DNA from: Odiellus spinosus
Lineage: Eukaryota > Arthropoda > Arachnida > Opiliones > Phalangiidae
Direction of reading: 5' to 3'
Assembly (NCBI GenBank): GCA_963920705.1
Contig: OY987228.1
Location: forward strand, 15,483,187-15,547,186
DNA: 64,000 nucleotides
The stretch's first letter is position 1, and every line of letters starts with the position of its first letter. Positions 2,213-64,000 of the stretch are shown one piece after another. The position numbers were made by a program, and so were the translations under genes. The notes beneath the pieces were generated by a model. It was not told where the DNA came from. It ran no database searches and saw nothing but the letters and a program-made list of their open reading frames with translations.

Positions 2213-5200
2213 TTACTTTTTATATTTAAGTACAAGCGTGATACATATTATAAATATCGCGATCCAAACGATTGAAACGAGAAATCCAATTTGTATATCG
2301 AAGTGTTCGAGGCCCCAACCTCTATTCATGATAGATACGAACGCTTGCGATGGCAGAGTCAGATTCATCAAGTACGCAATTATCCTCATTGCTTTAGGCA
2401 TACCTTCCACTGGCCATAGAAAACCTGTAAACGAGAAGGATTAAAGAATTTCAATTAGGAATGGAGTAAAGTTTCGATGTTTAAACCATAAAGTATCAGT
2501 TTTAAACATTAAAGTATACCTGCAAGAGTTTTGTCAGAGATCCTCTCTCTTCAGTAACCGGAATTCATAGATAAATATAGAGGAATATTTAACTAATTGA
2601 CTTTACTGTACTCCGACTAATAGCCCAGGGAAGAGCTCCCCCTTAACGTGTATCAAAACTTTATACATATTTTACTGACTCTCTTGAACTGACGTTGCCG
2701 ACGTGAGAGGCAAAAAATCATATTTGGTTGCCCTGATTACCGACTCGGTTATGTCGAAGGAAAATAAGACCAACACGCCTCGTCTTTCCTACCCCCCCCC
2801 CTCCCATAGAAGGTGGTCGGGGGAATATTACACGTACTCACTAAATCCAGACAAATATTCCTTCTTTATTTATTTATGAATTCTTGACTGTAAGCATTCT
2901 GAGACAAATATAAACTTACCACAAGAAAGCGCCAATGCCATCACAATTGAATTCATGCAAGTCAATCCCATATTTTCATCCGATGTTACCGCCGATATCA
3001 ATAAACCTAATAATTAAAATATCATATATTAAATTTTAAAAAGTACCTTACCCTGATTATTGCAAAATTATCTTACCAAAAGACATTCCAATATATCCTT
3101 GCAAAATGGCGAGCGTCATTAGAAGGGGGATCGATCCTTGGTATTCGAAACCAAAAACTAAAACAGGGATGGCTAACATACCGCCGATTTGAATGACAAG
3201 AACAAAAAAATTGAACGTAATATGAGAGACGAGAATTTGCATTTCTGTTACTCCCGATAGTAAAAACCGATCGTAAATCCCTTGTTTTCGTTCCGAGATG
3301 AAAGTGATTGTAGTTAAGGCAACGGCCATCGTGAATGTTAGTACCATTATGATATTGGGCAAAATATAGACGGTGAAATCCGTGTCCTCCTCTCCATACA
3401 CTGTTTCGGAAAACTATTACGAGACACAAAAACCAGTATATCTTCACTTAAACGCTACGGGCAATGGCAATCGTCTTACGTCCATTATTGGGTTGGCAAG
3501 TTCCAAAGGACCTTCGACTAGGGCCAGCATATCCCGTTGAAATTCTTCGAAGCCATCGAAAAAGCTTTTGTTTAGAGTAGAAGCTAGTAAGAAATCTAAA
3601 TAACGAAACGGAATATTTCAAGCTATAGAATATACACGGTCACTGCTGTCTGCTTCGCTCGTCAGGAAAGGCATGAAGTTGAATAGCTACTTCTTACGTA
3701 TACAGTGAGACAACGTCAACAATTTGGCTTACTGTCAAGATACATTACTTACTAGAAAAATCCAAGTGACCCGAGACGGTGCTGCATAAAACTGTGCTGT
3801 TATCCACTTGTTTTCCAAGTTCATATCTTCTAACTAAGCATTTTGTAAAATTTTGTGGAATTTCCAAAACCCCTAGATGATGTCCATCTTTAACCGATTG
3901 AACGGCAGTCGCTAAATCACTGAATCGATTCTAGAATTTTTAAAATATCCCTTTTCAGTTTATGGCGATAGTGTGTATTCGCAAGAATTATTTTTAAAAT
4001 AGTTTCCAAAGGAATTCAAATGCTTTTATGGACAAGTACCTGATTGACCGTTTCGTTGTCAATGTAACTTAGAAACACGTTTCCCATCAAGTCCCTTGGC
4101 TCGTGATTGACAATAGCCAAAGGTAAATCGAAAGGCAGAGTTCCGATGAAAACACAAAAGCCTATCACTTCCGCTGGAGGTAACGCTAGCTCGAATAGAA
4201 GTAGGATTAAATTTCTCTTGAGCAAGATGGCGTTTCTCCACACAAGGACTAACACTTTCACGAAAAAAGTTTTTAAACGTCCCTTCATCGAATGATCTGG
4301 GCTATCATCATCTTGCAAGAAAATATCGTCGTCCGTTACTGATTCTCTGGGTTCAATTACTTCCTCGGAAGTAACCTAAACGTTATTGCATCTCTCATAA
4401 TTGGTTTATCAACTGGGATGTTTGTAAACTCTTACCTTTGGTTCTTCATTTTCTAACTCGTTTAAATCAATACGTTTCTTTCTCTGGAATAACTTGGCGA
4501 AAAAACTTCGCTTTTGAGACTTATCGGGTTGATGACTCCTGATATCAGATTTACACAGATGTATAAAGCAGGTCTCCAATGTTATAGTATTGTAAGACTT
4601 CATCAAGGCAGTAGGCTCCGATTCCACTAGAATTTTACCTTTCCTCATTAGACCAACCTGAAACATCAACCCAAATTGATATTTTTGTACTCCCAAATCG
4701 TTTCTGGATGTGACCACTGCCAATAATCGTGTACTCACCAGATTAGCGTACCTGGCTTCTTCTACGTAATGCGTTGTTATAATAATAGTTGTTTTATCTT
4801 TTTGAGCGAGGAGTAGCAGATACTCCCAAATATTTTTTCTCAGAGCCGGGTCTGATCCGACAGTCGGTTCGTCCAAAATAAGTAGCTTTGGAAGGTTAAT
4901 TAGAGCGCATGCCAAAGACACTCGCCGTCTTTGACCACCACTGAAGCGATATATATAATACATATTTATGTACCGAATGTCTTTTAAAATATCTTACCTG
5001 GCATTTCCAAGTAACAAAGATCCACTCGGTAGCTTCAGAGATTCGCTAATTTTTTCGAACCTCACCAAGGCGACGCTTTTCTTAATCCCGTGCAAGCTGG
5101 AAAACAGCAAAACCATTTCCTGTACGCTGAACCGATCGTATAACGCGACATCCTTCAAATTTAGAACATTTTTAAAGGAGATCATTATAATTTATTCGTT

Positions 5201-5983
5201 GCCATAACGATTTATCTTTACCTGTGGCATATATCCGAGACCAGGTCCAGGGATACTCGAATTCTTACTGCCTGGCTTCTTTCCAAAAACCCATAACTCT
5301 CCGCGATCTAGAGTAATTAAGCCGGCCAGAGCTTTTAGTAATGTAGTTTTGCCACAACCACTGGGTCCAAGCAGGCCATAGCTAAGGTGTGTCAGAAACA
5401 TTAACGCAAACCCCTGTACATCATGGTACACGGTCCAGCCGAGTACTTACATGACGCCTTTTGGAACTCTGATATTAGTTTCTTGTAGAACGGCGATTTC
5501 ATTTGAGTGTCCATAAGAGTACGTGGCGTTGAGCGTGCTAACCGCTAGCGATTTCGAATGTTTTAATTGACTAGACAATGATACGTTCGATGGGGTAGCC
5601 TCAAACACAGACTTTCTACCACTAGAACAGGCATCGTGAGTATCGCCTAAATAACCGTTTACGTGAAGAACAGATATAAATAACGAAATTATTATTTTAA
5701 AATAAGCGAATGGTGGTGGAATTGAGACATGCTACAAACTACCTCACGTTCCAGTAATTTTAAATCATTATATTTTTGGCATTTTAATTTTGAAGTTTCT
5801 TAAAAACAGTGAATCGAAAGTATTATAATTTTGAATGGTTTTTATTAGTACGAATATAATAAAAAATATAGCACAAATACCATCAAAAAAGTGGTGAGAG
5901 CATCACTTTAAAAATTTGCAAACCGTTATTGATAGCCGTGTAATTTAAATAATATTTCACTAACCATTACTTGGTGCTTCCAT
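2213..5983 (-). CDS. ABCH/ABCG23-like half ABC transporter, tandem copy 1
   Basis: Twelve exons: 5983-5965, 5646-5451, 5381-5222, 5152-4998, 4940-4739, 4657-4436, 4375-4040, 3930-3753, 3595-3480, 3413-3077, 3006-2920, 2424-2213. They sum to 2220 nt, 739 residues plus stop, with all phases compatible. Start is ATG GAA GCA CCA in a 19-nt first exon. Nucleotide-binding domain first: Walker A GPSGCGKT (about 77-84), signature SGGQRRR (about 177), Walker B LLILDEP (about 196-202), switch His in TTHYVEEAR (about 234). An acidic, lysine-rich linker follows, then an ABC-2-type membrane domain with one helix near residue 355, several in exon 10 and one at the C-terminus (WIAIFIICITLVLKYKK). This reverse NBD-TMD order and the YMPQ / GVIYGLLGPSG signatures match insect ABCH proteins, implicated in lipid and cuticle transport; substrate here unknown. 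Works as a dimer. Same orientation as the copy at 8191-13441. Confidence 0.9.
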
Positions 5984-6929
5984 GAATTCAGTATTTGTTT
6001 TACTTATGTTTTAAATGTCATTGTTTATCAGGTCCTTCTAATGATACGCTGGTTTACTAATAATACGTGTGTTTGTAAAATTTCGATAAACAAATTAAAA
6101 TAACGAACCAAATATAAGCACGCGCGAATCAATTTCAGTTCGAGTTCGTTATATTACGGAAATAGAAGCTTAGTAAATGTAATAAAAAAGACACAATAAG
6201 TGTAGAAAGAGTATCTCGGATTAAATAACTGGTTTTGTTTCAAAACCCACATAACTTATATCGCTGCGCCTAGATCTCTGGTTAAAACACAAGTTGCTGC
6301 AACAAATAATTTTTCAAACGTCCTTGATAAAACGAGGTTTAGCAGACCCTGACCGGCGTAAATATCTCAAGAAAACCGGTCTTTAGTTCAACCCCTTCAT
6401 TAATAAACACCGGTTATGTTGTTAAGATAAAAGAATTTTAATTGAAATTTAGCGGATCAATTAAAAAAAAACCTATTTCTTATAGATTTGAGCCTGGGGA
6501 TTTCTACCATACTATCTGTAATACTATAAATTAAAGAAAAATAATTATTAATTTGAATTTTAAAATTAGTGCAAATCTAAGCCATCCTTACGCGTACTTG
6601 TATGTCTAGTAGGCCGAAGTATACAAACAATGAGTCTATCGTTCATTTCCCAACTTTACCCAAACAAAATAAATAGTAGTTTAATTTAACTAACTCGCAA
6701 TGTTTTAAAATAAAATCCAACCTTACTATTTGTAGGAACGAGAAAACGTCGACGAGGTTCATTCAATGCAACAAGAAAATTTTAATTCTCATCCTTGAAA
6801 GATACTTAAAAGGAAACTTGGAATTTTCGAAATCACCATGGCAAAATTGTATTTTAGAATTTTTAGACACGTTTTTGGTGTGGTGATTCCAAAAATAAAT
6901 TCAAAAGCATTTTTAGCTCGAAGTTTTCC

Positions 6930-7010
6930 TTTAAAGTGAGGCTGTCACCATTTATTTCGAATTCCTCTGGATTATATTTGATGAAAAATCCGTGGCTGCC
7001 TCACTTTAAA
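6930..7010. mobile_element. Short MITE-like element, TIR tttaaagtgaggc
   Basis: About 81 bp bounded by tttaaagtgaggctg on the left and its near-complement gctgcctcactttaaa on the right. A partial second occurrence of the same end (aaagtgaggctgacacca) lies near 22200. Internal sequence is non-coding. Likely a non-autonomous DNA transposon remnant. Confidence 0.5.
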
Positions 7011-7428
7011 AAAAATCTTTTCTATTTGGAATTAGCTTTCTTTCAAAACACCTTTTGAATCATGGTGGCTATACTTTGACTTGAAATGCGCCCCTGGCAA
7101 CGGACTACTACATACAATTTAAAAGTGTAGTATGCTAAATAAGGTTTCCTTTATCGGACGAAATTTGCGTAGTACCTCAGTTAGTTGCCGTACTACATAC
7201 CGTCTTAAACAGTAATTGACAACTTGTGATCTCGTTCCTTCTAGTTTTCCTACTTTGTCCTTGGTTTCTATCTAAACCCTAGTTTTTAAACGAATCTCAA
7301 GCCGTTTGCACCCAGAAACTGGGTCAATAAACTTGTGAACCCTGAACTATCTTATTGCGCCGTCTATAGTCCTTGAAATACCTGAAAAAAACTTTTCTCT
7401 CTAAGCCCCAACCATCCTGTTGAATTTC

Positions 7429-7593
7429 TTAAAGGGACTATTTGCGATATTTAAATCCCCTTTAAAGTCGCCTTCTTTTCTAGCTTAGTAGACTACGTTG
7501 ACCAAAACAAATTGTACAGTCAAAGCTAGGCTGTGTGTGTATGAGGAAAGAGCTTTTTAAAAGGGCAAATGTCAGAGCAGATAGGGCCTTTAA
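7429..7593. mobile_element. MITE family A copy (TTAAAGGGACTATCTGC ends)
   Basis: About 165 bp, with a left end like ttaaagggactatttgc and a right end gcagatagggcctttaa. The body contains the shared markers cgccttcttttctagctta and tacagtcaaagctaggct. Other copies in the window: 14826-17523 (interrupted), 19852-19992, 22263-22425, 24899-25052, 33652-33751 (partial), 34558-34736 and a degenerate one at 34737-34890. Confidence 0.75.
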
Positions 7594-7835
7594 AGGATGA
7601 CACCCAACATGATAAAATTAGCATATTAAATTTCGTATAGTAAGGTCTAAAAGATGTATATATATAATTTCACTGAAAAATATTCAACCGTAAGAGGATT
7701 AAAAACTCGCTTTTTTAATATTTTAATTTTCAGAAAAGGGGAGTGGCCATATAGTCGCGCAATTTGAAGATTCTGCCGTGATTGTAGATATCTTTCGAGC
7801 AACTGGCTTCCAATTTTTATTGCATTCATTTAAAC

Positions 7836-7901
7836 CACGGCCAACTTAGATCAGCTCCTCCGTCGTACAGGTGACGGAGGAGCTGATCTAAGTTGGCCGT
7901 G
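7836..7901. repeat. Perfect 29-bp inverted repeat with 8-nt loop
   Basis: Left arm 7836-7864 and right arm 7873-7901 are exact reverse complements (cacggccaacttagatcagc...), separated by gtacaggt. The arms are GC-rich compared with the surroundings. It could be a tiny transposon remnant, a cruciform-forming site or a hairpin RNA; nothing around it decides. Confidence 0.85.
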
Positions 7902-8190
7902 TTTATACAAAACGCGCGCCAAATCTCGTGGTATTTCCAATTTGTTTCGTACGGCGGGGCATCTTGGAATCTATTTGAAATAGACCACTTTTTATCATTT
8001 TAAGGGAAGAAAACTCATTGAAAATTTTGGAAAATTATATACATTGCTGTCATCCTTTTAGATAATTCTGCTCTCCATTTACAATTTCAATCCTCCGACA
8101 CCAGGCATGCTAACTTTTATATAGGGTATTTTGTAATTAGTAGAATGATATATTTTATTTTATATTATTTTAGGCAGATTTCTACCATTT

Positions 8191-11100
8191 TCACTTTTTA
8201 TATTTAAGTACAAGCGTGATAGATATTATGAATATCGCGATCCAAACGAATGAAACGATAAATCCAATCTGTACATCGAAGTGTTCGAGTCCCCATCCTC
8301 TATTCATTATAGCTACGAACGCTTGCGATGGCAGAGTCAGGTTCGTCAAGTACGCGATTATCCTCATTGCTCTAGGCATTCCTTCTACTGGCCACATAAA
8401 ACCTAAATACAAGTATATAAATAGATTACATTACGAATTCAGTACCGCTCTCTTAATATTAAGGGAAACAGATATCCCAAATGGATTCTACTCTTCAGTT
8501 CTACATTTGAGTAGTATGTTAAATGGACCACATGTTCGATAAACGCCGCTCTTGGCTAGCAGGGTCGGATTAAGACAATGTGACACCGGGGCCCAGCATT
8601 AGTGGGTTCCAGATCTACCAAGTGCAATGTTCACCGAGCATGTTAATTTCCGGTGAAAACCATATTGACTTACCGCTGGCAAAGCATAAAGCCATTACAA
8701 TTGAATTCATGCAAGTCAATGCCATGTTTTCATCCGATGTTATCGCCGATACCAATAATCCTAATAGGAAAAATATTATTAAAAACCTAATTTCCAAACA
8801 ATGGATTTTTAATTGTATCCATTATATTAATTAGGACAAACTAGACTTAGCAAAGCCTTATCAAATTACCATTTCATCCCAACTTATTACAAAAATAGCA
8901 TACTTGATGCCTGGTTTTGTTTTAATAGGAAATTATACATAAGGAAACACTTACTTCAACGTACATTTATAAAAAATAAGTTAGATTAGGTATAATTACA
9001 CTATTAGAAAGAAAGTGTTTTGAAAATGTAATATTAGGCTATATATCATTGAAATGTGAATATTGAGGAAATATAATATTTACAACAACTGGGCTATATC
9101 ATCAAAACAATATCAGATTATCTACCAACTACGCTTCTAACACAAACTGTGACTCATGAATTCGAAATTTTTGTACAACAGAGCTCTTAGGTGTCTGCCT
9201 CCTCGATACCTAGGTTATAAATTATCTTACCAAATGACATTCCAATATATCCTTGTAAAATGGCGAGCACCACCATAAGGAAGATTGATCCTTGATATTC
9301 GAAACCGAAAACATGAACTGGGATGGCTAACATACCGCCGATTTGAATGAGGAGAACAAAAAAATTCAGAATAATGTGCGACAGGAGATTTTGCATTTCG
9401 GTTACTCCCGATAGTAAGAACCGATCGTAAATTCCTTGTTTCCGCTCGGAGATGAAAGTGATCGTAGTTAAGGCAACGGCCATTGTGAATGTAAGCGCCA
9501 CTATGACATTTGGTAAAATATAGACGGTGAAATCCGTGTCCTTCTCTCCGTACACTGGTTCGTCAAACTATGAAGTAACACCAAAAACAGTTATATATCT
9601 CGTTCGCTTTAACGCTACGGCCAATGATAATTGTCTTACGTCCATTATTGGGTTGGCAAGTTCCAACGGACCTTCTACTAAGGCCAGCATATCTCGTTGA
9701 AATTCTTCGAAGCCATCGAAAAAGCTTTTGTTTAGAGTAGAGGCTAGCAAGTAATCTAAATAACGAAACGAAAGAAATATTTCAGATAGCCTCAGGACTG
9801 CGAGTCTGGAACGGTCAAAAATTCACATCACACCACGGCCACTCCAACTTTTTATATATATAGTGAGGCAACCGCAGCCATAGATCCATTACTTACTAGA
9901 AAAATCCAAGTGACCCGAGACAGTGCTACAAAAAATCGTTTTGTTATCCACTGATTTGCCAAGTTGAAGTTTTCTAACCAAGCATTTTGTAAAGTTATGT
10001 GGAATTTCCAAAACTCCTAGATTGTATCCATCTTTAACCGATTGTACGGCAGTCGATAAATCACTGAATCGATTCTAGGATTTTTAAAAAAATGTTTCTC
10101 AGTTTATAGCGACAGTGTGAACCACGGAATAATGCGCGAGGATTATTTTGAAAATACTTTTAAAATGAATTCACGTGGTTAAATTGACACGCACCTGTCT
10201 GACCGATTCTTTGTCAATGTAACTTAAAAAAACGTTCCCCATCAAGTCTCGGGGCTCGTGATTGACAATAGCCAAAGGTAAATCAAACGGCAGAGTTCCA
10301 ATGAAAATGCAGAAGCCTATGGTTTGAAAGGGAGGTAAGCCTAGCTCGAATAGAAGTAGGATTATATTTCTCTTGAGCAAAATGACGTTTCTCCACACAA
10401 GGGCAAACACTATTACGAAGTAAGTTTTTAAACGTCCCTTCATCGAAAGATCTGGGCTATCTTCATCTTGCAAGAAAATATCGTCGTCCGTTACCGATTC
10501 ACTGGGTTGAATTACTTCCCCGGAAGTAACCTAAACGTTATTGTATCTTTCGTAATTGGTTTATCAACTGGATGTTTGTAACTCTTACCTTTGGTTCTTC
10601 ATTTTCTAACTCGTTTAAATCAATACGTTTCTTTCTCTGGAACAACTTTGCGAAAAAACTTTGCTTTTGAGACTTATCAGGCTGATGACTCCTGACATCA
10701 GATTGACAAAGATGTAAAAAGCAGTTTTCCAACGTTACAGAATCGTAGGACTTCATCAAGGCAGTAGGCTCCGATTCCACCAGAATTTTACCTTTCCTCA
10801 TTAGACCAACCTGAAACATCGACGGAAAAGCAGTATTTTATTCTCCCAAACTGTATTTTACGGTTTCTGGATGTGAGCAGTAATCGTTTACTCACCAGAT
10901 GAGCGTACCTGGCCTCTTCTACGTAATGCGTTGTTATAATAATGGTTGTTTTATCTTTTTGAGCGAGGAGTAGCAGATACTCCCAAATGCTTTTTCGCAG
11001 AGCCGGGTCTGATCCGACAGTCGGTTCGTCCAATATAAGCAGTTTTGGAAGGTTAATTAGAGCGCATGCCAAAGACACTCGTCGTTTTTGTCCACCACTG

Positions 11101-16435: not shown

Positions 16436-17200
16436 TTTGTGTCAATAAGAAGCTTAGAATTTAGATTGTGTGTCAATACAGACCCATAATTCAATTTGCG
16501 TGTCAATAGGGACCCATAATTCCATTTGTGTGTCATTAGGGACCCATAATTCGATTTGTGTGTCAATAAGGACCCATAATTCGATTTGTGTGTCAATAAG
16601 GACCCATAATTCCGTTTGTGTGTCAATAGGGACCCATAATTCCATTTGTGTGTCATTAGGGACCCATAATTCGATTTGTGTGTCAATAAGGACCCATAAT
16701 TCGATTTGTGTGTCATTAGGGACCCATAATTCGATTTGTGTGTCAATAAGTAGCCATAATTCGATTTGTGTGTCAATAAGAACCCATAATTCGATTTGTG
16801 TGTCAATAAGAAGCTTAGAATTTAGATTGTGTGTCAATACGGACCCATAATTCGATTTGTGTGTCAATAAGGACCCATAATTCGATTTGTGTGTCATTAG
16901 GGACCCATAATTCGATTTGTGTCAATAAGTACCCATAATTCGATTTGTGTGTCAATAAGAACCCATAATTCGATTTGTGTGTCAATAAGAACCCATAATT
17001 CGATTTGTGTGTCAATAGGGACCCATAATTCGATTTGTGTGTCAATAAGTACCCATTATTTGATTTGTGTGTCAATAAGAAGCTTACAATTTAAATTGTG
17101 TATAAATAAGAAGTTTATAATTTAAATGGTGGGCCAATTAGAAGTTTACAGTTTAAATTGTGGGCCAATTAGAAGTTTACAGTTTAAATTGTGTGTCAAT
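16436..17200. repeat. 30-bp minisatellite (unit like tcgatttgtgtgtcaataag + gacccataat)
   Basis: More than 20 tandem copies of a 30-bp unit with small variants (ggaccc, gtaccc, gaaccc, and a gaagcttagaatttagattg form that recurs near 16448, 16808 and 17080). Flanking tgtgtcaatag motifs, some palindromic, extend to about 15345 and 17390. Because 30 is a multiple of three and the unit lacks stops in several frames, long open frames with 10-residue repeats appear on both strands (16426-17125); these are artefacts. Confidence 0.9.
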
Positions 17201-23918: not shown

Positions 23919-26900
23919 ATGTTACCTGTTAGAAGAGTTCAACAAGTGACATCTTGGGTCAGAGTCATTTTGGGATTCTTTATTGGCGTGATTTTGGCTT
24001 CATATTTGAAGAGCATCTATTTACGCGGTGGAGACCCATTATGTTCTCTTAAAGAGAGCATGGAAAAAAAGATCACAATTACTAAAACCACAGCTTTACC
24101 AACTAGGAGTCCTACAACATTGAGATCTAATGAAACACCCTTAAAATTGCTTTTCGTGGGTGTGATGACTGCCCAAAAATACCTGGATACGAGAGCTTTA
24201 GCCATTCACGAAACGTGGGGGCCTACAGTGCCGGGAAAATTAGTATTTTTCTCAAGCGAGTCTTCTCAAACTGAACATAATCTACCCTTGGTGACACTAA
24301 AGGGGGTTGATGATTCTTACCCCCCTCAGAAGAAATCGTTTCTCATGCTTAAATACATTCATGATAATTTTATTAATGACTACGAATGGTTTATGAGAGC
24401 CGATGATGATGTCTATATCAGAACTGATAAACTAGAACCATTCCTACGCTCTATCAACAGTAGTAAACCTCAATTTATCGGTCAAGCTGGAGTTGGAAAT
24501 AAGGAAGAATTTGGACAATTGAGCTTAGAACCTGGGGAAAATTTCTGTATGGGAGGTCCTGGAATCATCTTCAGCCGACAAACTTTAAAATTGATGGTAC
24601 CTCACGTTAGGTATTGTTTAAAACATCTCTATACTACTCACGAAGATGTTGAAGTTGGGAGGTGTGTTAGAAAATTTGCTTCAACATCGTGCACATGGTC
24701 TTACGAGGTAAATATCTCTTAGTAACATGTCACCTGTTGATTTCTCAAACTAAATTCTGAACTCTAGACCCACGAGGTTCAAAGAGAATAGAACATACAA
24801 GACTTTTTACTGAAGAACCCCATAATTTTAGGGATTGTCCCATGACAAACCACCAACCATATAACCTTCAGTAATAAAACTGAAGGCTTCTATTCCCTTT
24901 AAAGGGACTATCTCCAATTTAAAGAGACCCTTTAAAGTCGCCTTCTTTTCTTGCTTACCAGACAATGTTTACCATAACAAACTACAGTCAAAGCTAGTGT
25001 ATGTGAGAAAGGGATGATTTTAAAGGGTCAAATTGTAGAGTAGATAGGGCCATAGTAGACACGCAACCTGACTTAATTATAATTTGTGGGAATACGCAAG
25101 GCTGTTTTTACATACGCCATACGCGTGATGCCAGTTTTTTCTTTTCATTACAATGTGCTCCCATAGAATAATAAAAGAAATCAGCTTCCCAAATGACGAA
25201 AAATCTTCTATTTAGGTCAAATATGATCCTTTGGAAAATGCTAACAGAATTCGAAATAACCTAAATTTTTGTTGAATTAGGAAACTTATTTCATTTCGTC
25301 AAATTCTGTTAGAATTTTGTACCATTTTTCACCAAAATAGATTTTTCTCTCCTCATTGGGAAAGCCAATTTCTTTTGTTATTCTATAGGCTCATATTGAA
25401 ATGAAAGGCAGTAAAACCAACATCATGCGTATGTGAAAACAGCCTCAGGAATTTTTTAAATTTCTGAAGATGAAATTCGCATGCTTGACACCAGATTAAT
25501 TTGACAAGGTCAGAATCGAGTCAGGTTGCGTGTCTACAATGGAGTTGAAATCTATTTACGATATATCAACATCTTCAACTCAATTTAAGTCCAATCTCTT
25601 GATAACTGTCATTTAAATTATGCAGATGCAAACAATTTTCTATCACAACTTCACTGGCGAAGTTGCTACATCCCCAAACTTGAGAACTAAAGAGATTCAT
25701 CGAGCAATAACCTTGCATCCGGTAAAGCAACCGGTGAATATGCATCGGTTAGATGTGTATTTTCAAGGAGTCAAATCTCAAGAGCTTAGATACAAGGCCT
25801 TACAATTGCATCGAGAACTTCTTCAAGCCTCCAATTACTTGAAAGAAGACCCCGATGATTGGTTACGTTCCTATAAAGAATTGGCAGACACCACAAAATT
25901 AGGATTAAAACCGGATTTAAACAATTTTCGACCCAATTCTTCGAAACAACACGATTTGGTGCCTTGGGATTTTTTCACAAAAAGTCTTTATTCGTATAAA
26001 ATGCGAAATCCAAAGCTAAGATTACAAAGTTCATTTAAAATGGGCTTGGAAGATGTAATTATGGACGTAATGGATAGCATAAACAAGTTTAGCAAGCAAC
26101 GTGGTCGCATAATTGAATTCAAAGATATATATTACGGATATTATCGCGTTAACTCGTTATCTTTTGACATGATATTAGACATGCTTCTCACGTACAAAAA
26201 ATTTAGAGGAAAAAAGATGACAGTTCCTGTTAGAAGACACTGTTATTTGAGAAGACCTTTTAGCTCACTAGAAATACGTTCCTTATCATACAATTATACC
26301 GTAGCCACGGGAGTGGGTAAAAGCGTAGGTTCCCAGTCTCGGGTGATTAGTCAGAAAGAAATACATTTTATAGTTCCTTTATACGGAAGAATGGAAACCT
26401 TTAAAAGATTCATGAACAATTTTGAAAACGTATGTCTAACGAGACAAGAGTCTGTAAAACTAGCGGTTGTCCTCTTCCTCGATACTGATCAAAATCAAGA
26501 GTCTGCCAAGCAGGCGAAGGATCTCATAGATTCTTTAAGAATCCGGTACGTAGGGTACGATTTGAAGCTTATCGAGGCTAGTGGTACTTTTTCGAGAGCT
26601 TTAGCCTTAGAAATAGGAGCCAAACTATTTCCAGCCGACGCTTTGTTATTTTTTATCGACGTTGATATGGCTTTTGATGCTAGCGTATTAAGTCGAGTAA
26701 GAAAAAATACTATAAAGGGAAAACGAAGCTACTTTCCTATTGTATTTAGTCAATATGACCCAGTTTTTCGATCGAATACTCCTTCGGATCCATTTGATAT
26801 TGATGAAAATATCGGTTATTGGAGGCAATTTGGGTTTGGAATTGCTAGTTTGTACAATAATGACTTTCAAGCTGTTGGGGGAATGGACACCACGATTCAG

Positions 26901-27128
26901 GGTTGGGGTAAAGAGGATGTAGATTTATTTTCTAAGCTAATCACCAGTGAAATCGAAGTTTTTCGCGCCCCAGATCCCGGTTTAATTCACGTGTTTCACC
27001 CTATAACGTGCGATCCAAAACTCAACCCTTCTCAGTACGAAATGTGTTTAGGTAGCAAAGCTTCCAGCATGGGCACTGTAGAGCTTCTAGCCGAGCAGCT
27101 TTTAAAGCGGTACAAAGACTACTTTTAG
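23919..27128 (+). CDS. Chondroitin sulfate synthase (CHSY family)
   Basis: Two exons, 23919-24707 and 25626-27128, give 763 residues; the donor (TACGAG|gtaaat) and acceptor (atgcag|ATGCAA) are in phase 0. The N-terminus is a type II Golgi signal anchor (WVRVILGFFIGVILASYL, about 13-30). First glycosyltransferase domain (GT31-like): LLFVGVMTAQKYLDTRA, then ADDDVYIR with the acidic triad at about 162-164, and EDVEVGRCVRKF. The TWSYE/MQ junction matches CHSY proteins across the intron. Second domain (CHGN, GT7-like): MTVPVRRHCYL, FIDVDMAFD with DVD at about 608-610, IQGWGKEDVDLF, HVFHPITCDP and the LGSKASS tail. The enzyme alternates GlcUA and GalNAc transfer to build chondroitin chains. Both metal-binding motifs are present, which favours an active synthase over the CHPF cofactor. 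The intron holds two transposon remnants. Confidence 0.94.
24899..25052. mobile_element. MITE family A copy in the chondroitin synthase intron
   Basis: Begins tttaaagggactatctcc and ends tagatagggcc. Its last bases (ttta) are replaced at the junction with the element that starts at 25055. Confidence 0.65.
25055..25537. mobile_element. Foldback element in the chondroitin synthase intron
   Basis: Perfect 19-bp terminal inverted repeat: gtagacacgcaacctgact at 25055-25073 and its complement at 25519-25537. Nested pairs continue inward (ggctgtttttacatacgc / gcgtatgtgaaaacagcc; aacagaattcgaaat / atttcgtcaaattctgtt). 483 bp and non-coding. No clear target duplication. Confidence 0.7.
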
Positions 27129-29391: not shown

Positions 29392-32300
29392 ATGAATATC
29401 ACATCAGCCGCGGGCATCATCTCCTTCCTGGAGGAAGACCAGTCGGAGCTTAGGATTTTTGCTCTTAACAAGCTAAATATCATCGTTGATGAATTTTGGG
29501 CAGAAATATCCGAAGCGATTGGAAAAATTGAGGTTTTATACGAAGATGAAGATTTTTCGCAACGTAAAATGGCAGCGCTGGTAGCTTCTAAAGTATACTA
29601 CCACCTGGGATCTTACGATGATGCTTTAACCTACGCTCTCGGAGCTGGAGAACTCTTCGACGTTAATCATTCATCAGAGTACGTTGAAACGATAATTTCT
29701 AAATGTATCGATCATTACACCAAACTTAGATTGGCGAATGCGGAGCTTAAGGAAGAGGATGAATTCATCCCAATTGATCCAAGGCTGGAAGCTATTGTAA
29801 ATCGTATGTTTCAAAGATGTTTCGATGATGGGCAGTTTAAACAGGCTGTGGGAATCGCTTTGGAAACACGAAGGATGGACGTGTTTCAAAATTCAATTTT
29901 AAGTTCCGACGACGTCAATGGAATGTTATCTTACAGCTTCAAAGTAACCATGTCTCTTATCCAAAACCGCAACTTTCGAAACAACGTTCTGCGAACCCTG
30001 GTCAATCTTTATAAAAATTTGGAAGTTCCTGATTACGTCAATATGTGCCAGTGTCTCATATTTTTGGACGACGCCCAGTCGGTCGCTGAAGTTCTGGAAA
30101 AACTGTCTAGAGTATCACGAGAGAGTGCCTTAATGGCCTATCAGATTGGTTTTGATCTCTACGAAAGCGCGACTCAACAATTCCTTTCAAGGGTACTCAA
30201 AGCTTTGAGAGCTTCGGCTCCATTTCCTGAAACTGTAGTCTCTCCGCTTTTATCAACACCTACTGCGGATCCTGAAGCGAGTTCGTCCGGTGTAACTAAA
30301 AAGGAAGGCGAAGACAAAGAAGAAGAAATGGATGTGGATAACAAAGCGACTGAAGAAGCTGAAAAATCATCAATTGCCTCTGCCAATGATGTTTCACCAA
30401 AGAGAGTAATCTTAAACGAAAGGGATAAACAGCTACAGGAGAGAATAGAAAATCTAGCCACCATATTAGGAGGGGAAACTACAATTGATTTACACCTTCA
30501 ATTCTTAATCCGAAATAATCACACGGATATGCTAATTTTAAAACAAACCAAGGAAGCCACTAGAAATAGTATTTGTCACACCGCTACAGTTATTGCGAAT
30601 TCTTATATGCATAGTGGAACTACCTCTGATCAGTTTCTTAGAGATAACTTGGACTGGTTGGCTCGAGCTACTAATTGGGCGAAATTCTCCGCTACAGCTA
30701 GCCTGGGTGTAATTCACAAAGGTCACGAGAAGGAGGCTTTAAATATCATGTCATCCTACCTCCCCAAGGATTCTGGACCAGGAAGCGGTTACACCGAAGG
30801 AGGTGGACTTTACGCTCTTGGTCTTATTCACGCAAACCATGGAGCTGCCATTACGGAATACCTTCTCACTCAGCTTAAAGAAGCTTCGAACGAAGTTGTA
30901 CGTCACGGAGGCTGTCTCGGTCTCGGTCTAGCTTCAATGGGAACTCATAGGCAAGATGTTTATGACCAACTGAAACACATTCTTTATCAAGATGACGCCG
31001 TAACTGGGGAAGCGGCCGGTATAGCCATGGGCCTAGTAATGCTGGGATCAAAATCTATTGGGGCTATCGAAGAGATGGTTGCCTATGCGCGAGACACCCA
31101 ACACGAAAAAATTTTAAGAGGCTTAGCTATTGGAATTGCATTAACAATGTACGGCCGACTCGAAGAAGCGGACACTTTAATTAACTCTCTTTGCATGGAT
31201 AAAGACCCCCTGTTGAGGAGATCTGGAATGCACACCATTGCTATGGCTTACTGCGGCACTGGCAACAACAAAGCTGTAAGAAAACTTCTACATTTTGCTG
31301 TCAGCGATGTAAATGATGATGTCCGTCGGTCAGCGGTGGAATCCCTCGGATTTCTTCTATTCAGGACCCCAGAACAATGCCCCAGCGTAGTATCTTTACT
31401 CTCTGAATCCTACAATCCTCATGTACGGTGCGGAGCTGCTACAGCTCTGGGCATTTCGTGCGCTGGAACTGGAAACAAAGAAGCTTTAGCTCTGCTAGAA
31501 CCAATGGTAAAAGATCCAGTAAACTTTGTCCGTCAGGGGGCCTTGGTAGCTTCTGCCCTAATCCTCGTTCAACAAACCGAATCCACTTGCGGAGCGAAAG
31601 TCAAGGAATTTCGACAACTCTATTCCAAGGTTATAACTGACAAGCACGAAGATGTTATGGCCAAGTTCGGAGCTATTTTGGCTCAAGGAATTGTCGACGC
31701 TGGTGGTCGTAATGTAACTGTTGGCCTCCAATCACGTACTGGGCACACAGACATGGAAGCCGTTGTTGGAATGCTGGTAGCTTCCCAGTTTTGGTACTGG
31801 TATCCGCTCTCGCATTTCATGTGCTTGGCATTCAAACCGACCTGTTTGGTTGGTTTGAACCACGAATTGAAGATGCCCAAGATGGAGTTTCGGTCCAACG
31901 CTCGACCTTCTTTATACGCGTACCCACCAGCCCTAGAAGAGAAAAAGGAACCCGAAAGGGAAAAGGTAACCACTGCCGTACTGTCCATTACGGCTCGCGC
32001 CACCAAAAAGAAGGAAACTGAGAAGAAAGAAAAGCAAAATGCTGAAGAGAAGATGGAAGTTGATGAAGAGAAGAAAGATGAGATTAAACCAAAAGCTTCA
32101 GGATCGTCTAAAAAGGAGACTGAAGCCAAAATGGACAGCAGTAAACCTTCCACCTCCTCGGGTGAAACTAGTAAAGACTCTAAGGACTCAAAAGAATCGG
32201 AGCCAGCCAAGAAAGATGCTGAACCAGCCAAAAAAGATGCTGAACCAGCCAAAAAAGATGCTGAACCAGCCAAGAAAGATGCTGAACCAGCCAAGAAAGA

Positions 32301-32661
32301 TGCTGAACCAGCCAAGAAAGATGCTGAACCAGCCAAGAAAGATGGTGAGCCAAACAAGAAAGATGGTGAGCCAGCCAAGAAAGACGCTGAGCTGGCTAAG
32401 AAAGAATCACCCGAACCTTCATTCGAAATATTGTCCAACCCTACCAGAGTGATGAGACAGCAATTAAAGGTCATCCAGATGGTAGAAGGTAGCCGATATG
32501 TACCCCTAAAAGACGTAACAATTGGGGGAATCATCCTACTTCGAGATACAAAATCACAGGAGCCTGAAAGTTTGGTAGAGCCAGTAGCCGCTGGCGGACC
32601 CAAAGTAGAAGAAGAAGATGAACCTGAACCCCCAGAACCTTTTGAATACATTGAAGACTAA
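29392..32661 (+). CDS. Rpn2: 26S proteasome regulatory subunit Rpn2 / PSMD1
   Basis: A single uninterrupted coding exon of 1089 residues. The start [20 protein letters not shown] and the end [11 protein letters not shown] match PSMD1 orthologues. The order is an N-terminal helical rod, then proteasome/cyclosome repeats forming the toroid ([82 protein letters not shown]), then a C-terminal domain. Rpn2 is the largest scaffold of the 19S base; it docks the ubiquitin receptor Rpn13 through its extreme C-terminus. The protein is longer than the human one (953 aa) because of charged low-complexity inserts: an acidic stretch near residues 300-325, a Lys/Glu-rich stretch near 845-935, and about ten 7-residue repeats (EPAKKDA) at about 937-1004. 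An open frame on the opposite strand (31683-32651) is a shadow. Confidence 0.97.
32200..32405 (+). repeat. 21-bp coding tandem repeat in Rpn2
   Basis: About ten copies of a 21-bp unit (gaaccagccaagaaagatgct with variants), each encoding E-P-A-K-K-D-A. The central copies are nearly identical. The 3' copies diverge ([14 protein letters not shown]), a pattern expected of recent replication slippage in the middle of the array. Confidence 0.9.
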
Positions 32662-45959: not shown

Positions 45960-46994
45960 ACTTCCTAGGCATAAACCGATTGCACCATTAGAAAGAAGGT
46001 ATTTCATAGATTAATATAAAATAATAAAATTAACATGAGCCACTCTTTAAAGACTATTTCGACCCTGATGGAAATCTATCATAAATCCCAAAATGACCCC
46101 TATCTTGAAATGGCAGTAACTTTTTTATTTTAACACCTAGGCATAAACCGATTGCATCATTAGAAAGAAGGTATTTCCTAGATTAATATAAAATAATAAA
46201 ATTAACATGAGCCACTCGTTAAAGACTATTTCGCCACTGATGGAAATCTATCAAAAATCACAAAATGACCCCTATCTTGAAATGGCCGTAACTTTTTATT
46301 TTAACACCTAGGCATAAACCGATTGCACCATTAGAAAGAAGGTATTTCCTAAATTAATATAAAATAATAAAATTAACATGAGCCACTCGTTAAAGACTAT
46401 TTCGCCACTGATGGAAATCTAGCAAAAATCCAAAAATGACCCCTATCTTGAAATGGCCGTAACTTTTTTCTTTTAACACCTAGGCATAAACCGATTGCAC
46501 CATTAGAAAGAAGGTATTTCCTAAATTAATATAAAATAATAAAATTAACATGAGCCACTCGTTAAAGACTATTTCGCCACTGATGGAAATCTAGCAAAAT
46601 TCCAAAAATGACCCCTATCTTGAAATGGCAGTAACTTTTTTCTTTTAACACCTAGGCATAAACCGATTGCACCATTAGAAAGAAGGTATTTCCTAAATTA
46701 ATATAAAATAATAAAATTAACATGAGCCACTCGTTAAAGACTATTTCGCCACTGATGGAAATCTAGCAAAAATCCCAAAATGACCCCTCTCTTGAAATGG
46801 CCGTAACTTTTTTATTTTAACACCTAGGCATAAACCGATTGCACCATTAGAAAGAAGGCATTTCCTAGATTAATATAAAATAATAAAATTAACATGAGCC
46901 ACTCGTTAACGACTATTTCGCCACTGATGGAAATCTAGCAAAAATCCAAAAATGATCCCTATCTTGAAATGCCCGTAACTTTTTTCTTTTAACA
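45960..46994. repeat. Satellite array, six monomers of about 172 bp
   Basis: The marker cctaggcataaaccgattgc recurs at 45964, 46136, 46307, 46479, 46651 and 46823, giving a period of 171-172 bp. Monomers also share agaaggtatttcct, aacatgagccactcgttaa and tgacccctatcttgaaatgg. The central monomers are nearly identical. Non-coding, and about one nucleosome repeat long. Confidence 0.95.
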
Positions 46995-57628: not shown

Positions 57629-59559
57629 ATAGTATGATTGGCCCGAATTTATATATCCTTTTGTTTAAACTTTAATCAACTTTAGATATTAATTTATACA
57701 CCAAAAAGGTGTCTAAACATAGTGAGAAATTTCTCGAATAATGATTCCGAAAATAATTCAAACGCTGTTTCATTTTTACCTCCAAGTTTCCCTTTAAAAT
57801 GTTAATCCGCAAAACATGAGTTTTAATTATATAAAATCCTACGTTAATAAACTTTATATATCGTGTTTAGTGTGATCAAGAACACATTAATGTTAAATGA
57901 TAAATTTCGGCGCTAGAAATCAAGCTTGTTCATTCTTGGAACCTGTTCCAACGTTCTCGGGTCTCGTCAATTTGTTCTTATTGTAATACACTTTCATTGA
58001 AAGAAGATAAAGTGTGAAATCGAGAAGCAGCTCTTGATGATGTTACAAAAATGAAAATCAATTTGCTCCAAGTTGTTGGTAAATTTACCGAAGGAAGTTT
58101 ATTTACAAACTTGTTGAGAAAACATTTTTGGTTCTCTTCAAGGGGAGCTTTTAAGCACTAGCTATCTCGCGTATCAAGGTTATGTCTTTATATATAAAAT
58201 TATTATATCAAAACCAATATTTTATGACCAAAAATTAAACGTAATTACTATACACGCGATTGAATTACAATCTACTGCAATCTACTTAGGTTTTGTATAT
58301 TTTTTCTTTCGGTTCCATTTATATACTTTAAAATCTTAAGAGAATTCTATATATAACCCTGTTATTTAATTAACCAGGCTCTTTAATTAAATTAATTAAC
58401 TGCTTTTAAATAGCTGTGGTGAGGTCAAACAGGAAAATGCAGAAAATGAATAATTTAGATATTGATTTTGAAGGAAATCTTGATTGATAAACCACCGTGC
58501 TTGCTGGTTAGTTAGTGCCATCTTAAATGGGTTGTGGTTAACTTAAATAGGGCTTATAAATTGATTTTGTATTTCAATGGGCAAAAATTTCATTATTTAA
58601 TACTTGGGTACTTTATACATTTTTTGGCCTCGGGTCCGCGATTTTACATTTCAAGAACTTGCCCTTCCATATTGATTTTTCAATACTTACGTCTTTGGAT
58701 TTGGTTGAATAATTTAACGGGGGGAAAAAACTAGACTTTTTCGCTTATTTAAACATGCATGTACCGTCTCTGAATTGTGGAAAAATATCGAAGAAGATTC
58801 AGGTTTTGGCATTCAAATAAAAAATAACCTCAGACTAATTAAAATACTCCACACCATTGGCTTCATAAAATATCCACGACACGCACTGTTGTACGCACGA
58901 TTGTGCGCGATTTAAAGAGTATGCCGCAGCACGTGTCGCGGAGATTTGATTAGTCGGAACAGACTAGTCGGAGTCACCCTACCCTTAATATAAGCTTTGA
59001 TTTATTTCAACCCCTTCCCTTGTACAAGAACAAGTCATACCCTTGATCAAGGCGTCTACACTCTTAGAGTTCATCTTTACGTGCAGTTCAAACTCTTAAG
59101 AAATCTGAATTCAGTTTAAGAGATTTGTACACCAGTTTTTCAACCTATTTTTCAACCACCCGTTTGGTTTGTTTTGGAATGCACTCATTTTGTGTCTGCC
59201 AACTTATTTTATCAACCTTAAACAATGGTCTTCTGCCTAAATTTTGGTTCGCAGCGCAAGCCCCTAACAGACGCTGCCAAGGTTGTTGTCTTTTTCACGC
59301 GACAAAACGTGGGACTGACAGAAAACCACGGTACAAGGCTTTCGGAGGGAGACAAAATGGGTACCGGTTGAGTTGATATGTCCGCTCCCATACAACGTAG
59401 CACGAAACAAAGTATTTAAGCGCTTCTCAGAAGAAGCCAAACGTATAGGAGATTTCTTGACGATGCTCGTAACTTTTATCGTCCTTTGGCTGACTGTCAT
59501 CGAGTTAGCGTTTGACACAGGGCAGAGTTAGGCCATTAACTCGGTAGATCCGTTGACTC

Positions 59560-60499: not shown

Positions 60500-60645
60500 T
60501 TGTAGATTCGGGAAAGGTTCATTTCTTTAGAAATGTTAAAGGGATAAGTGACCACAATAAGCCACTAGACAGCTAGCTGTAAAAGTCGCTAATACAAAGG
60601 CTCTGCACCGTATATAGGTGAAAATAAACGTAATAGTTGTTCGGT
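60500..60645. repeat. Dispersed repeat, first of a pair
   Basis: Shares tttgtagattc, tctttagaaatgtt, agccactaga... aaaagtcgct, ctctgcaccgta and gaaaataa.cgta.t with 63836-63997, in the same order and orientation. Likely two copies of a small transposon or SINE-like unit. Confidence 0.6.
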
Positions 60646-61242
60646 TTAAACCAGCTGACAATCGAAAAAGTATAGGGTAAAGAATTCTAAATACAAGGTC
60701 GGAATAAATGTAAAAGCTTTATTGAAATCTTAATGGGGAAGGGTGAACTTCCTCCCTCATGGGTTTAAACGTTTATGCTCATTATTTCTCTATCTTAATT
60801 AAATGTGTCAAGTAGGTGTATAAAGCAACGTATATCGTTTAAAAACGTCACAATCGTTTACGTAACGTGTATATATAGTAAAGTTAATTCGCTTCTCGTC
60901 TAGAAGAGGTTAGTATTTAGAGTTCATTCTCGGGACAGTAGAGATTATTATTTACAAATAATTATTCTATTGTATTCGGCATCCTTCGATATTAATTGGA
61001 CTGGAATAGTCTCAATTAGAGTTGGTTAAAAATATTAATATCGCGTAGAAAACGTATAGAAAATATTCAATACTTTTGGTTTTTTTCATAGAAAATACCG
61101 TGATAGCGTTTTTAAACTTTGCAAGATTATGCCTATGATATGACCAAAGAGCTTTAAATTCGTCTGCAGTGATGACTATATTGAGTGATTACCCCGATAT
61201 ATTATGAAAAGTGATTTAAAATTATATATAGCAACTTTTTAT

Positions 61243-61463
61243 AAAGGGAGGATGAAGAGGAAAATTTTACTATTTTTATTAAGGCAAAAATGGAGCGTAT
61301 CTTCATTAGTCGAAGGTTCTCCTTTTAACTGAATGCCAAAATCGGAAGCTTTCATTTTTTTTACAATTCAGAAACTTTCTGTATGTTTACTGCACAAACA
61401 TGTCTTCTTTTTAGAAGCAGAATCAATTAAAAAAATCAGTTAATTTTTCCCTTCACCTCCTTT
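61243..61463. mobile_element. MITE, family C-like
   Basis: Left end aaagggaggatgaagag, right end cccttcacctccttt (inverted, with mismatches). 221 bp, non-coding. Confidence 0.45.
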
Positions 61464-62077
61464 AACGATTTAATGAATTTTAACGTCAACTGTCAATTAC
61501 GTACGTTAATTTTTTATAATTGATTACAGTAATTAAATAATTTTAAGATTACGTTTTAATTGAACATCAGCTTGGTATTTTAAAACTGATCTTGAAGAAC
61601 AAAACGTTTAGTGATTTTATGTGAGTGTTTTAGGTATGTATTATAATTGGAACACAATAGTAAGAACGCAGTTATAATCATTAATACAGGCGTAACCCAA
61701 ACCGGGTGATGCTATGACAATATCTAATATATCAAGAATATGATGCGCAAAATTTCATTATTAAGGTCCAAGGCAACTGAGAACCGTCTAACGAAGCGAC
61801 CGATCAAGGCTTGAGCTGAACGCTTTTCCACAGGCTATAGCTATGAAACTCCGCCCACGATCGTTCCCTTCGTTGGCGGCTAAGCTCTATTAATAGACGC
61901 TCATTCACAGTGTAACTTTCTATTATATCATTGGTAATATATTTTACGCGTAAATAAATAAACATACATAACGAGTATCTTCGTAATTATATCGTCAATT
62001 GTTTCTTCTTCTTGCCTTAAGATTATCATATTCTATTTCGGTTCAGATTGTTGTGAAATCTCAAAATCACAAACAAA

Positions 62078-62743
62078 ATGCATCATCGAACATTGATCGC
62101 TCTTTTAATCGTTTCAACTATGATATTTCTAGTTGTCGGTAAGTTTTAGTCGAAATTGTAATCAAAGAAAATGTATCATTATTCCGAAAATGATTTTTAT
62201 CGATTCAATAACGCAATTGTCACTGTTAGAAATTAGACCTAAATTCATCAGCGATAGACTTGAAAGCATCAAACTTTAGTTTTGAGTTCGTGACGTAATG
62301 GCATTGTCGTAAATTGCTCAAGATCAGTGCCGTGTAGATTTCTAGGGAAAGTGGGGAATATTTTAGGGGATAACCATAAATTTTCTTCTTCCTGTAATTG
62401 TCGTCCTCCCAATGAAAGTATTTTCGTTACTTTATTTTAATACGTAATCTCGCGTAATATATTTAAGGTGATCTTCCCAAGTTTTTTTTCGAAGGCGATG
62501 TAGTTCCCGCGAATCTTTACGTAGACGGTGTTGTTCCCGTAGAATTGGTGAGACTTAAATTTTAATTAAAATGCTTTTGAGTTTGTACAAAAATAAGAAT
62601 GTTTTTAACTCAAATTTGGTTTAAAGAGACAACTATGTCGCCACCATGGTGGTGAATGCATGCATTCGTGCACAGAAAGACTCAGACATGACACAATCGA
62701 TTGCCGGAAACTGGGACAATATTGCTGCGTATTGGTTAAATAA
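62078..62743 (+). CDS. Secreted six-cysteine peptide with beta-defensin spacing
   Basis: Three exons, 62078-62138, 62468-62547 and 62627-62743, give 258 nt, 85 residues plus stop. Junctions are consensus (GTCG|gtaagt, ttaag|GTGAT; GAATTG|gtgaga, ttaaag|AGACAA) and phases agree. Exon 1 is a signal peptide (hydrophobic ALLIVSTMIFLVV after MHHRTL). Exon 2 is an acidic propiece (net about -4). Exon 3 holds the mature part: cysteines at about 51, 58, 62, 73, 80 and 81, spacing C-X6-C-X3-C-X10-C-X6-C-C, with the G-X-C before the second cysteine typical of beta-defensins. The mature part is cationic (about +3, plus four His). Classical insect defensins have a different cysteine-stabilised alpha-beta pattern without a final CC. 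A polyadenylation signal AATAAA follows at 62868. Probable antimicrobial peptide; a venom-type or signalling role cannot be excluded. The family assignment rests on spacing, not on a database match. Confidence 0.75.
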
Positions 62744-62867
62744 TGGATTGCGAAACTATGCATACACGTGGGTTTATCAAGGTTTATAATTGTTTCACGT
62801 TATATATCAAAATTAAACGTTGTATCCCATAGTTCACAACTATTATTTCATGTACCCGAAAACATTC

Positions 62868-62873
62868 AATAAA
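62868..62873 (+). terminator. Polyadenylation signal AATAAA of the six-cysteine peptide gene
   Basis: Canonical hexamer 125 bases after the stop codon, consistent with a short 3' UTR for a compact peptide gene. Confidence 0.6.
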
Positions 62874-64000
62874 ACCAAATATAACAAACACCGTAAAATG
62901 TATTTTAAAAACGTTACTGGCGTATGTCAGAGGAATTATTACTCATTTGGCTTTCATACTTGTATGAACTCTAATGGCCTTTGCTAAAACACTTGTGGTT
63001 ATATTTGGATTTTATCGCTAACGTTTTTGTAATTTATTTTTTTTTCTTCATTTCAACAACCGCAATGCGTGACATATTAAACCCATGTTCATGCACTTAA
63101 AATTGGATATTCAAGGCGTGTAGCTTTAATCCGAATCTATTTTTCTTTTGATATAAACTTCTACATGCTCAGTTTTAAGAGAATAATGTAACACACTTTG
63201 AAATATAATTGAATTAATTGATTCAATTAACTTTTTTTTAATTCGAATATGGAAACTAGAAATTAGTTTAAAATCCAAAATCTATTTATCGTAGCCAGAT
63301 TGTGTTGATCTAATTGGTTTCTTCGATGTAAAATTAATTATTTTACTTTATTTTACACGGATTTATGGAAATATGTTCATTTTATTCCACGCCCTGAGAT
63401 TCTTTTGATAGGTATCAACTCCTTAATGGGGCTGGGACGAAGAAATATTGCGATAATTGTAACTTGCTCTAACGATAGTTTTCATTTTCACCTAAGACGG
63501 GAAGGTTGCGCTGATGTTTGCCAATCGCGTTATAGTATACTATTCCTTCTACATGTATTGCGTGGCCACAATTTTTCCACTCAAGCGAAATGTCAAGTTT
63601 GCCGACTTGGGAGAGGGCAGCGTCTGTTATACATTTTAATATTTAAAAAATTCAGTTATATTCACAAACAAGTTATGTCCACTTAAATAAACAGGCCCTG
63701 TCATCTTGGCGTATAGTGGAAGTAGGATATCGTAAATAAAATACAGCACACGTGTTATATAATCTTATTTTAAAAGCGTCCATCTTGCTTTTTATCTTCT
63801 TTTCAACGACTACCATCAATGGCGGCCATCTTTGCAAATTTGTAGATTCATGAAACATAAATTGTCTTTAGAAATGTTTAAGGAGATGTTTTTTACGGAA
63901 AAGCTCCATATAATTTTGTAGGTAGCCACTAGCTAGCACTAAAAGTCGCTATGACGAAGGCCCTGCACCGTAAAGGGATTGAAATAATCGTAGTGCTTCT
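62874..64000. other. AT-rich intergenic to window end
   Basis: A Cys-containing frame at 63405-63686 begins with TTG and lacks the six-cysteine pattern. 63836-63997 is the second copy of the dispersed repeat at 60500-60645. No gene recognised. Confidence 0.5.

Follow-up and report, generated by a model that had tools for sequence, protein, structure and literature searches.

A tandemly duplicated one-domain gene of Odiellus spinosus related to insect two-domain carboxypeptidase-inhibitor-like proteins

Near the end of a 64,000-nucleotide stretch of Odiellus spinosus DNA (contig OY987228.1, positions 15,483,187 to 15,547,186; hereafter the window) lies a small three-exon gene on the plus strand, whose product is probably a small secreted peptide with a predicted beta-defensin fold. 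The coding sequence occupies 62078-62138, 62468-62547 and 62627-62743; with boundaries, GT..AG sites and frame rechecked, it measures 258 nucleotides including the stop codon and encodes 85 residues. Exon 1 (62078..62138) supplies the start codon and a signal peptide, read by eye, in 20 codons plus one nucleotide. A phase 1 intron (62139..62467) separates it from exon 2 (62468..62547), whose translation and charge count indicate a cysteine-free, acidic linker or propiece of 27 residues, and a phase 0 intron (62548..62626) follows; both introns have GT..AG ends. Exon 3 (62627..62743) encodes a 38-residue six-cysteine domain and the stop codon, an assignment that draws on the cysteine pattern, homologues, an AlphaFold2 (AF2) model and Foldseek. 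After its Cys-Cys pair the chain ends in Val-Leu-Val-Lys (62729..62740), proposed below as a carboxypeptidase-binding tail. Direct reading places an AATAAA polyadenylation-type signal at 62868..62873. An initial annotation had described a complete small gene hidden by a longer, misleading frame over exon 3. Its exons, splice sites and frame are confirmed, and an ATG frame of 47 residues (62646-62789) does overlap exon 3 in a different phase.

The cysteines of exon 3 follow exactly the array given in that annotation, C-X6-C-X3-C-X10-C-X6-CC, and this 6-3-10-6-0 spacing lies in the beta-defensin range. A loose six-cysteine pattern occurs once in the six frames of the window, at exon 3. Across 40 first-order Markov versions of the window, the loose pattern appeared twice and the exact spacing never. 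A chance origin of the array is therefore unlikely. The acidic propiece and cationic mature domain described earlier are borne out by net charges (K+R minus D+E) of -4 for exon 2 and +3 for exon 3. The protein minus its signal only has a net charge of -1, and a sequence scan of the window gene found no dibasic or RXXR site ahead of the cysteine domain. As judged from its sequence, the three-exon gene is real.

The gene lies within a head-to-tail duplication unit on the plus strand (60645..63769, blastn blocks of 75-93% identity). Comparison of the window with the 3.2 kb that follow it by blastn located the second copy, on the same strand, just past the window end (contig C4:15547199-15550438). 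The duplication covers approximately 3.2 kb, including promoter and 3' region, and the tandem copy starts 3583 bases downstream of the window gene. It encodes 68 residues, the first 20 identical to those of the window gene, and keeps the start, splice sites, phases, six cysteines, C-terminal block and stop; AGTAAA stands at the position matching the AATAAA of the window gene. The 5' parts are similar: 59 of 61 bases are identical in exon 1, with no amino-acid change in its 20 full codons, and 226 of 270 aligned bases are identical in intron 1. For intron 2 the figure is 67 of 77. The exon 2 of the tandem copy has 29 nucleotides, which encode ten dissimilar residues, and is shorter by 51 nucleotides (17 codons). 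In exon 3 the copies differ at 34 of 117 sites and share 47% identity at the protein level. A cysteine-pattern scan of the 10 kb after the window found no third tandem copy. Separately, 58735-58947 is 77-92% similar to a place approximately 0.76-0.95 kb past the window end, off-register with the tandem duplication, and is probably a dispersed repeat.

Across the 443 Mb genome, at least two copies beyond the window gene were found. The dispersed copy (L003, contig C16:6269334-6272441) encodes two six-cysteine domains behind a hydrophobic leader. Each domain has its own exon, and both introns are in phase 1. In its form, Gly-Gly-X-Cys, the first domain matches the two dipteran relatives and not the hymenopteran ones. 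A weak match considered as a further copy (L006, E 1.74) was discarded; it has no such cysteine pattern.

The named relatives of the gene are all insect proteins. A single-sequence search of 5.8 billion proteins, with an 86-residue query (the spliced protein with one extra Gly), returned one match at E up to 10, the ant protein P0003 (E 0.0012). Two profile rounds yielded 40 proteins, of which the 36 named ones are all from insects, with E values down to 6.9e-41. The named relatives come from ants, bees, a hornet, a sawfly, parasitoid wasps and two Diptera (horn fly and mosquito). The names shown are uncharacterized, U-scoloptoxin(19)-Sm1a and Carboxypeptidase inhibitor; the last is the UniRef name of the ant protein P0021, and that of P0029 begins "Carboxypeptidase". 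Alignments to the window protein fall on exon 3, with identities up to 64%, and 37 of the 40 relatives have additional cysteines that would make up a second domain. With the three copies described here, 43 sequences were examined; the domain is present in 42, P0025 being excluded for want of domain 2. At least six cysteines precede the domain in 38 of these 42. The four without a full first domain are the window gene, the tandem copy, P0009 (three cysteines) and P0024 (none). P0009 and P0024 are predictions from short contigs, and P0024 (69 residues, 3100-base contig) is not counted as a one-domain gene. By sequence similarity, the window gene thus falls in the carboxypeptidase-inhibitor-like or U-scoloptoxin(19)-like family, with one six-cysteine domain in place of the two (12 cysteines) that characterize it.

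No Pfam family was found in the full-length window protein, and NCBIfam gave no match for three proteins. The Pfam beta-defensin models did not match the window protein and reached only E 3.7 with the tandem copy (8.5 against 22.2 bits). An N-terminal hydrophobic domain of the big defensin type is absent ahead of the cysteine domain of the window gene. A clip domain was considered and rejected, since Pfam searches of 27 members yielded none at E up to 1. On their sequences, the relatives found are mostly two-domain carboxypeptidase-inhibitor-like insect proteins, not antimicrobial defensins.

The fold was examined by structure prediction. The AF2 model of the exon 3 domain has a mean predicted local distance difference test score (pLDDT) of 85.3 and a predicted template modeling score (pTM) of 0.54. 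All 15 Foldseek matches of this model are defensins or defensin-like, eight of them human beta-defensin 1 variants, with a weak best E of 1.9. The VIA lists comprise chains that Foldseek had already selected (17 and 16) and leave room for families outside those lists. These predictions suggest that the exon 3 domain probably has a beta-defensin fold. Of the earlier description as a beta-defensin-like peptide, the array and the predicted fold stand, and membership of the family does not, given the missing Pfam match and the inhibitor-like relatives. The initial annotation had named homologues in an unrelated cysteine-rich family as grounds for refutation, and this is partly the case: the homologues fall in a different cysteine-rich family, albeit one with a beta-defensin-like fold.

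The most uniform element of the family is its C-terminus. In 42 of the 43 sequences, which are all those with the domain, the chain ends three to four residues past the last cysteine, and in 37 of the 42 the tail begins Val-Leu-Val. A Cys-Cys-(Val/Thr/Ile)-Leu-(Val/Leu/Thr) end, with at most one residue more, is common to Hymenoptera and Diptera and more tightly conserved than the loops of the domain. The tail has the same length as that of the tick carboxypeptidase inhibitor (TCI, MEROPS I68), the protein that family profiles rank first among solved structures (E 0.009-0.08, weak). It also leads the solved structures when an ant relative is the query. TCI itself has beta-defensin-type domains (PMC6339383). 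These observations suggest a distant kinship of the insect family with TCI. Carboxypeptidase inhibitors with unrelated folds are described as sharing only such a tail, held in the active site (PMC5511257). Because the short tail is conserved and the tail alone is alike among inhibitors of unrelated folds, it is likely the working part. Since such an inhibitor inserts its C-terminus into the carboxypeptidase, a Val-Leu-Val tail of three to four residues would be expected.

We therefore favor, with a probability of roughly 0.55, the proposal that the window gene encodes a secreted one-domain derivative of the insect two-domain family that would block M14 carboxypeptidases by its tail. After secretion, the disulfide-held domain would offer Cys-Cys-Val-Leu-Val, plus one Lys, to an M14 metallocarboxypeptidase at its active site. 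The enzyme would trim off the final residue or retain it in the S1' pocket; the carboxylate of Val would lie at the zinc site, and the peptide would thereby block the enzyme. With one domain, the protein would be a single-headed inhibitor with an altered target range. Both the inhibition and the target enzyme are ours to infer.

Several observations weigh against this proposal. The window protein has no first domain of a double-headed inhibitor, its terminal Lys is found in only three of the 42 sequences, and the conserved Val-Leu-Val may instead be the last beta-strand. With the window domain alone as the query, a phospholipase A2 homolog (E 0.86) heads the PDB matches and TCI comes second (E 1.1); with the dispersed copy, human beta-defensin 106 leads (E 0.28) and TCI is unlisted. 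Avian beta-defensin 11 likewise heads the Foldseek list of the two-domain model (E 0.28), in which TCI ranks 13 (E 9.7). Matches to I68 reach at most 20 bits against the gathering score of 25 for Pfam PF10468, 19 of 27 members have no I68 match at E up to 1, and the window protein has no PF10468 match. A different model, Kazal_CFAI, matches more of the 27 members than I68 does (14), and matches them better (E 9e-05, 23.2 against 27.7 bits). Its matches run from the last part of domain 1 into the first part of domain 2 and are below the cut-off in the three cases with scores.

More tentatively, and at less than even odds, the locus may record the conversion of a double-headed carboxypeptidase inhibitor into a one-domain gene by loss of the first domain and tandem duplication. 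The vertebrate beta-defensin architecture would then have arisen here independently, from an enzyme inhibitor and not a big defensin, and the duplicate would now be diverging. Exon 2 was considered as a decayed first domain and rejected. Its similarity to the 45 residues ahead of domain 2 in the relatives is no better than that of shuffled sequences: shuffles equal or exceed the best score in 1400 of 2000 cases when the first three residues of exon 3 are included, and in 1322 of 2000 when they are not. Exon 2 is not significantly similar to domain 1 of the relatives; that this domain was lost, rather than never present, is inferred.

An unlikely alternative, though the best placed of those considered, is that a one-domain copy left the inhibitor family and turned cationic, as an immune-induced antimicrobial peptide with beta-defensin-like action on membranes and exon 2 as its acidic neutralizing propiece. 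From the first cysteine to the end, the window domain carries +2 and the tandem copy +3, as compared to -3 to +1 in 39 relatives from other species; however, the dispersed two-domain copy is equally cationic over the same stretch (+3). The proposed propiece has no cleavage site separating it from the cysteine domain, the uncleaved secreted protein is at -1, and the tandem copy has just 10 residues ahead of the exon of its cysteine domain. The Foldseek matches to defensins are consistent with such a role. A crude scan of approximately 0.8 kb upstream found kappaB-like sites at both copies, two at -721 and -211 for the tandem copy and a single weaker one at -736 for the window gene, but at non-matching places.

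Tandem duplication and rapid change would also suit an immune peptide. Exon 3 diverges between the tandem copies at 0.42 per non-synonymous site (dN) and 0.23 per synonymous site (dS), a dN/dS of 1.82, with the signal peptide unchanged. By the Jukes-Cantor measure, the introns differ at 0.14-0.18 per site, the 5' flank at 0.17, and the 3' flank at 0.28 (0.33 in its first 137 bases). The non-synonymous divergence of exon 3 exceeds that of the introns (Fisher p 0.0008), yet the excess is not significant against the 3' flank (p 0.09) or against exon 3 synonymous sites (p 0.45). Of 17 amino-acid differences from the first cysteine on, 11 appear to have arisen in the tandem copy and four in the window gene, with two unclear; the window gene therefore looks like the conservative copy of the pair. 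Rapid evolution as a proof of immune function is weakened, since the 3' flank has diverged too, the 5' half of the pair may have undergone gene conversion, and it is the tandem copy in which most changes look derived. In a tree of the short domain, none of 39 inner branches is well supported and the window gene is not placed; the branch of the tandem copy is very long (2.8). An immune role, which the initial annotation had suggested, is possible but unsupported.

Somewhat less probable still is a salivary, venom or silk-gland peptide that acts on the channels or enzymes of another animal. Two of the 40 relatives (P0003 and P0038) bear the name of a centipede venom family, and double-domain relatives are reported from caterpillar venom (PMC11335235) and firefly larvae (PMC11209139). 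However, the U-scoloptoxin(19) name is a transferred annotation, and the spread of the family over ants, bees, a hornet, a sawfly, parasitoid wasps and Diptera would suit a general function in the body. The firefly table gives an entry of 2, apparently expression, as compared to 18,044 for the top toxin (PMC11209139). Least probable is a decaying gene or a set of mis-joined, untranslated exons: exon 2 is almost wholly different between the copies and the dN/dS of exon 3 is not below 1, but both copies retain start, splice sites, phases, the six cysteines, the C-terminal block and stop despite the 34 differences in exon 3, the length difference in exon 2 is a multiple of three, and exon 3 remains similar to insect proteins.

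Among known systems, the insect two-domain family (U-scoloptoxin(19)-Sm1a-like) shares with the window gene the type of its last domain (CRHHGGECM...DC...CCVLV), a short leader and the C-terminus. It has two six-cysteine domains, whereas the window gene has one, preceded by the cysteine-free exon 2. The window protein resembles vertebrate beta-defensins and lobster panusin in its single secreted six-cysteine domain with adjacent last cysteines. It differs from both in its conserved Val-Leu-Val end and in a secreted form that is not clearly cationic, and it has no significant Pfam or PDB sequence similarity to the vertebrate peptides; panusin is compared by description. Insect cysteine-stabilized alpha-beta defensins are likewise small and secreted, with six cysteines and a middle C-X3-C. 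Their last cysteine pair is C-X-C, in contrast to the adjacent CC of the window peptide, which has no Pfam match and fold matches of another type. TCI shares the Cys-Cys pair and tail length but has two domains, and the similarity stays under the Pfam cut-off.

The initial annotation considered that such a fold in an insect would be uncommon or undescribed, a novelty that published work does not support. The same double domain is reported from oak processionary moth (U-TPTX10) and firefly (U-Lampyristoxin-Ln3), both two-domain proteins likened here by their published descriptions; the former was linked to moth and tick carboxypeptidase inhibitors, U-scoloptoxin19 and the beta-defensin fold (PMC11335235, PMC11209139). 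Centipede family 19 is tabulated as a 12-cysteine "putative carboxypeptidase inhibitor" beside scoloptoxin family 20, whose table entry (six cysteines, C-C-C-C-CC) shows a one-domain framework of similar type to that of the window gene (PMC4379518). A silkworm protein called a carboxypeptidase inhibitor is reported to be active (PMC9861121), and an ascidian protein, Rusticalin, has a similar domain pair (PMC6339383). Aphid BCR4 is described as having the beta-defensin bonding pattern in a different fold (PMC9604261). A 2017 survey regarded I68 as tick-only (PMC5673224). A 2020 review of big defensins calls the beta-defensin array nearly absent from Ecdysozoa; the passages concerned name only horseshoe-crab big defensins and panusins, with no insect case (PMC7203481). 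No one-domain insect form was found among the open-licence PMC papers covered. The one-domain, tandem-duplicated form appears to be new, the fold in insects having already been published.

Elsewhere in the window, ABC transporter exons lie on the minus strand at 4409-9555, with an ABC_tran match at 4412-4963 and an exon at 9187-9555 assigned by frame reading. A Chondroitin N-acetylgalactosaminyltransferase/Fringe-like gene of at least two exons occupies 23919-27128. An RPN2 (26S proteasome) gene contains a 21-base repeat (32203-32405, 9.7 copies) that codes for Pro-Ala-Lys-Lys-Asp-Ala-Glu units. A minisatellite at 16466-17079 (30 bases, 20.5 copies) has several open frames, with Thr-His-Lys-Ser-Asn-Tyr-Gly-type repeats on the minus strand, and a satellite-like array at 45964-46994 has six copies of a 172-base unit with 96% matches.

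In contrast to the 2020 review, our analysis indicates that a family whose fold is probably that of beta-defensins is common among insects, where it goes by toxin or inhibitor names. Should the conserved Val-Leu-Val end serve to block an enzyme, a simple assay would assign a function to the family, and from the one-domain copies it would become clear whether inhibition requires the second head. The one-domain copies would also be a test case for the interconversion of enzyme inhibitors and host-defence peptides.
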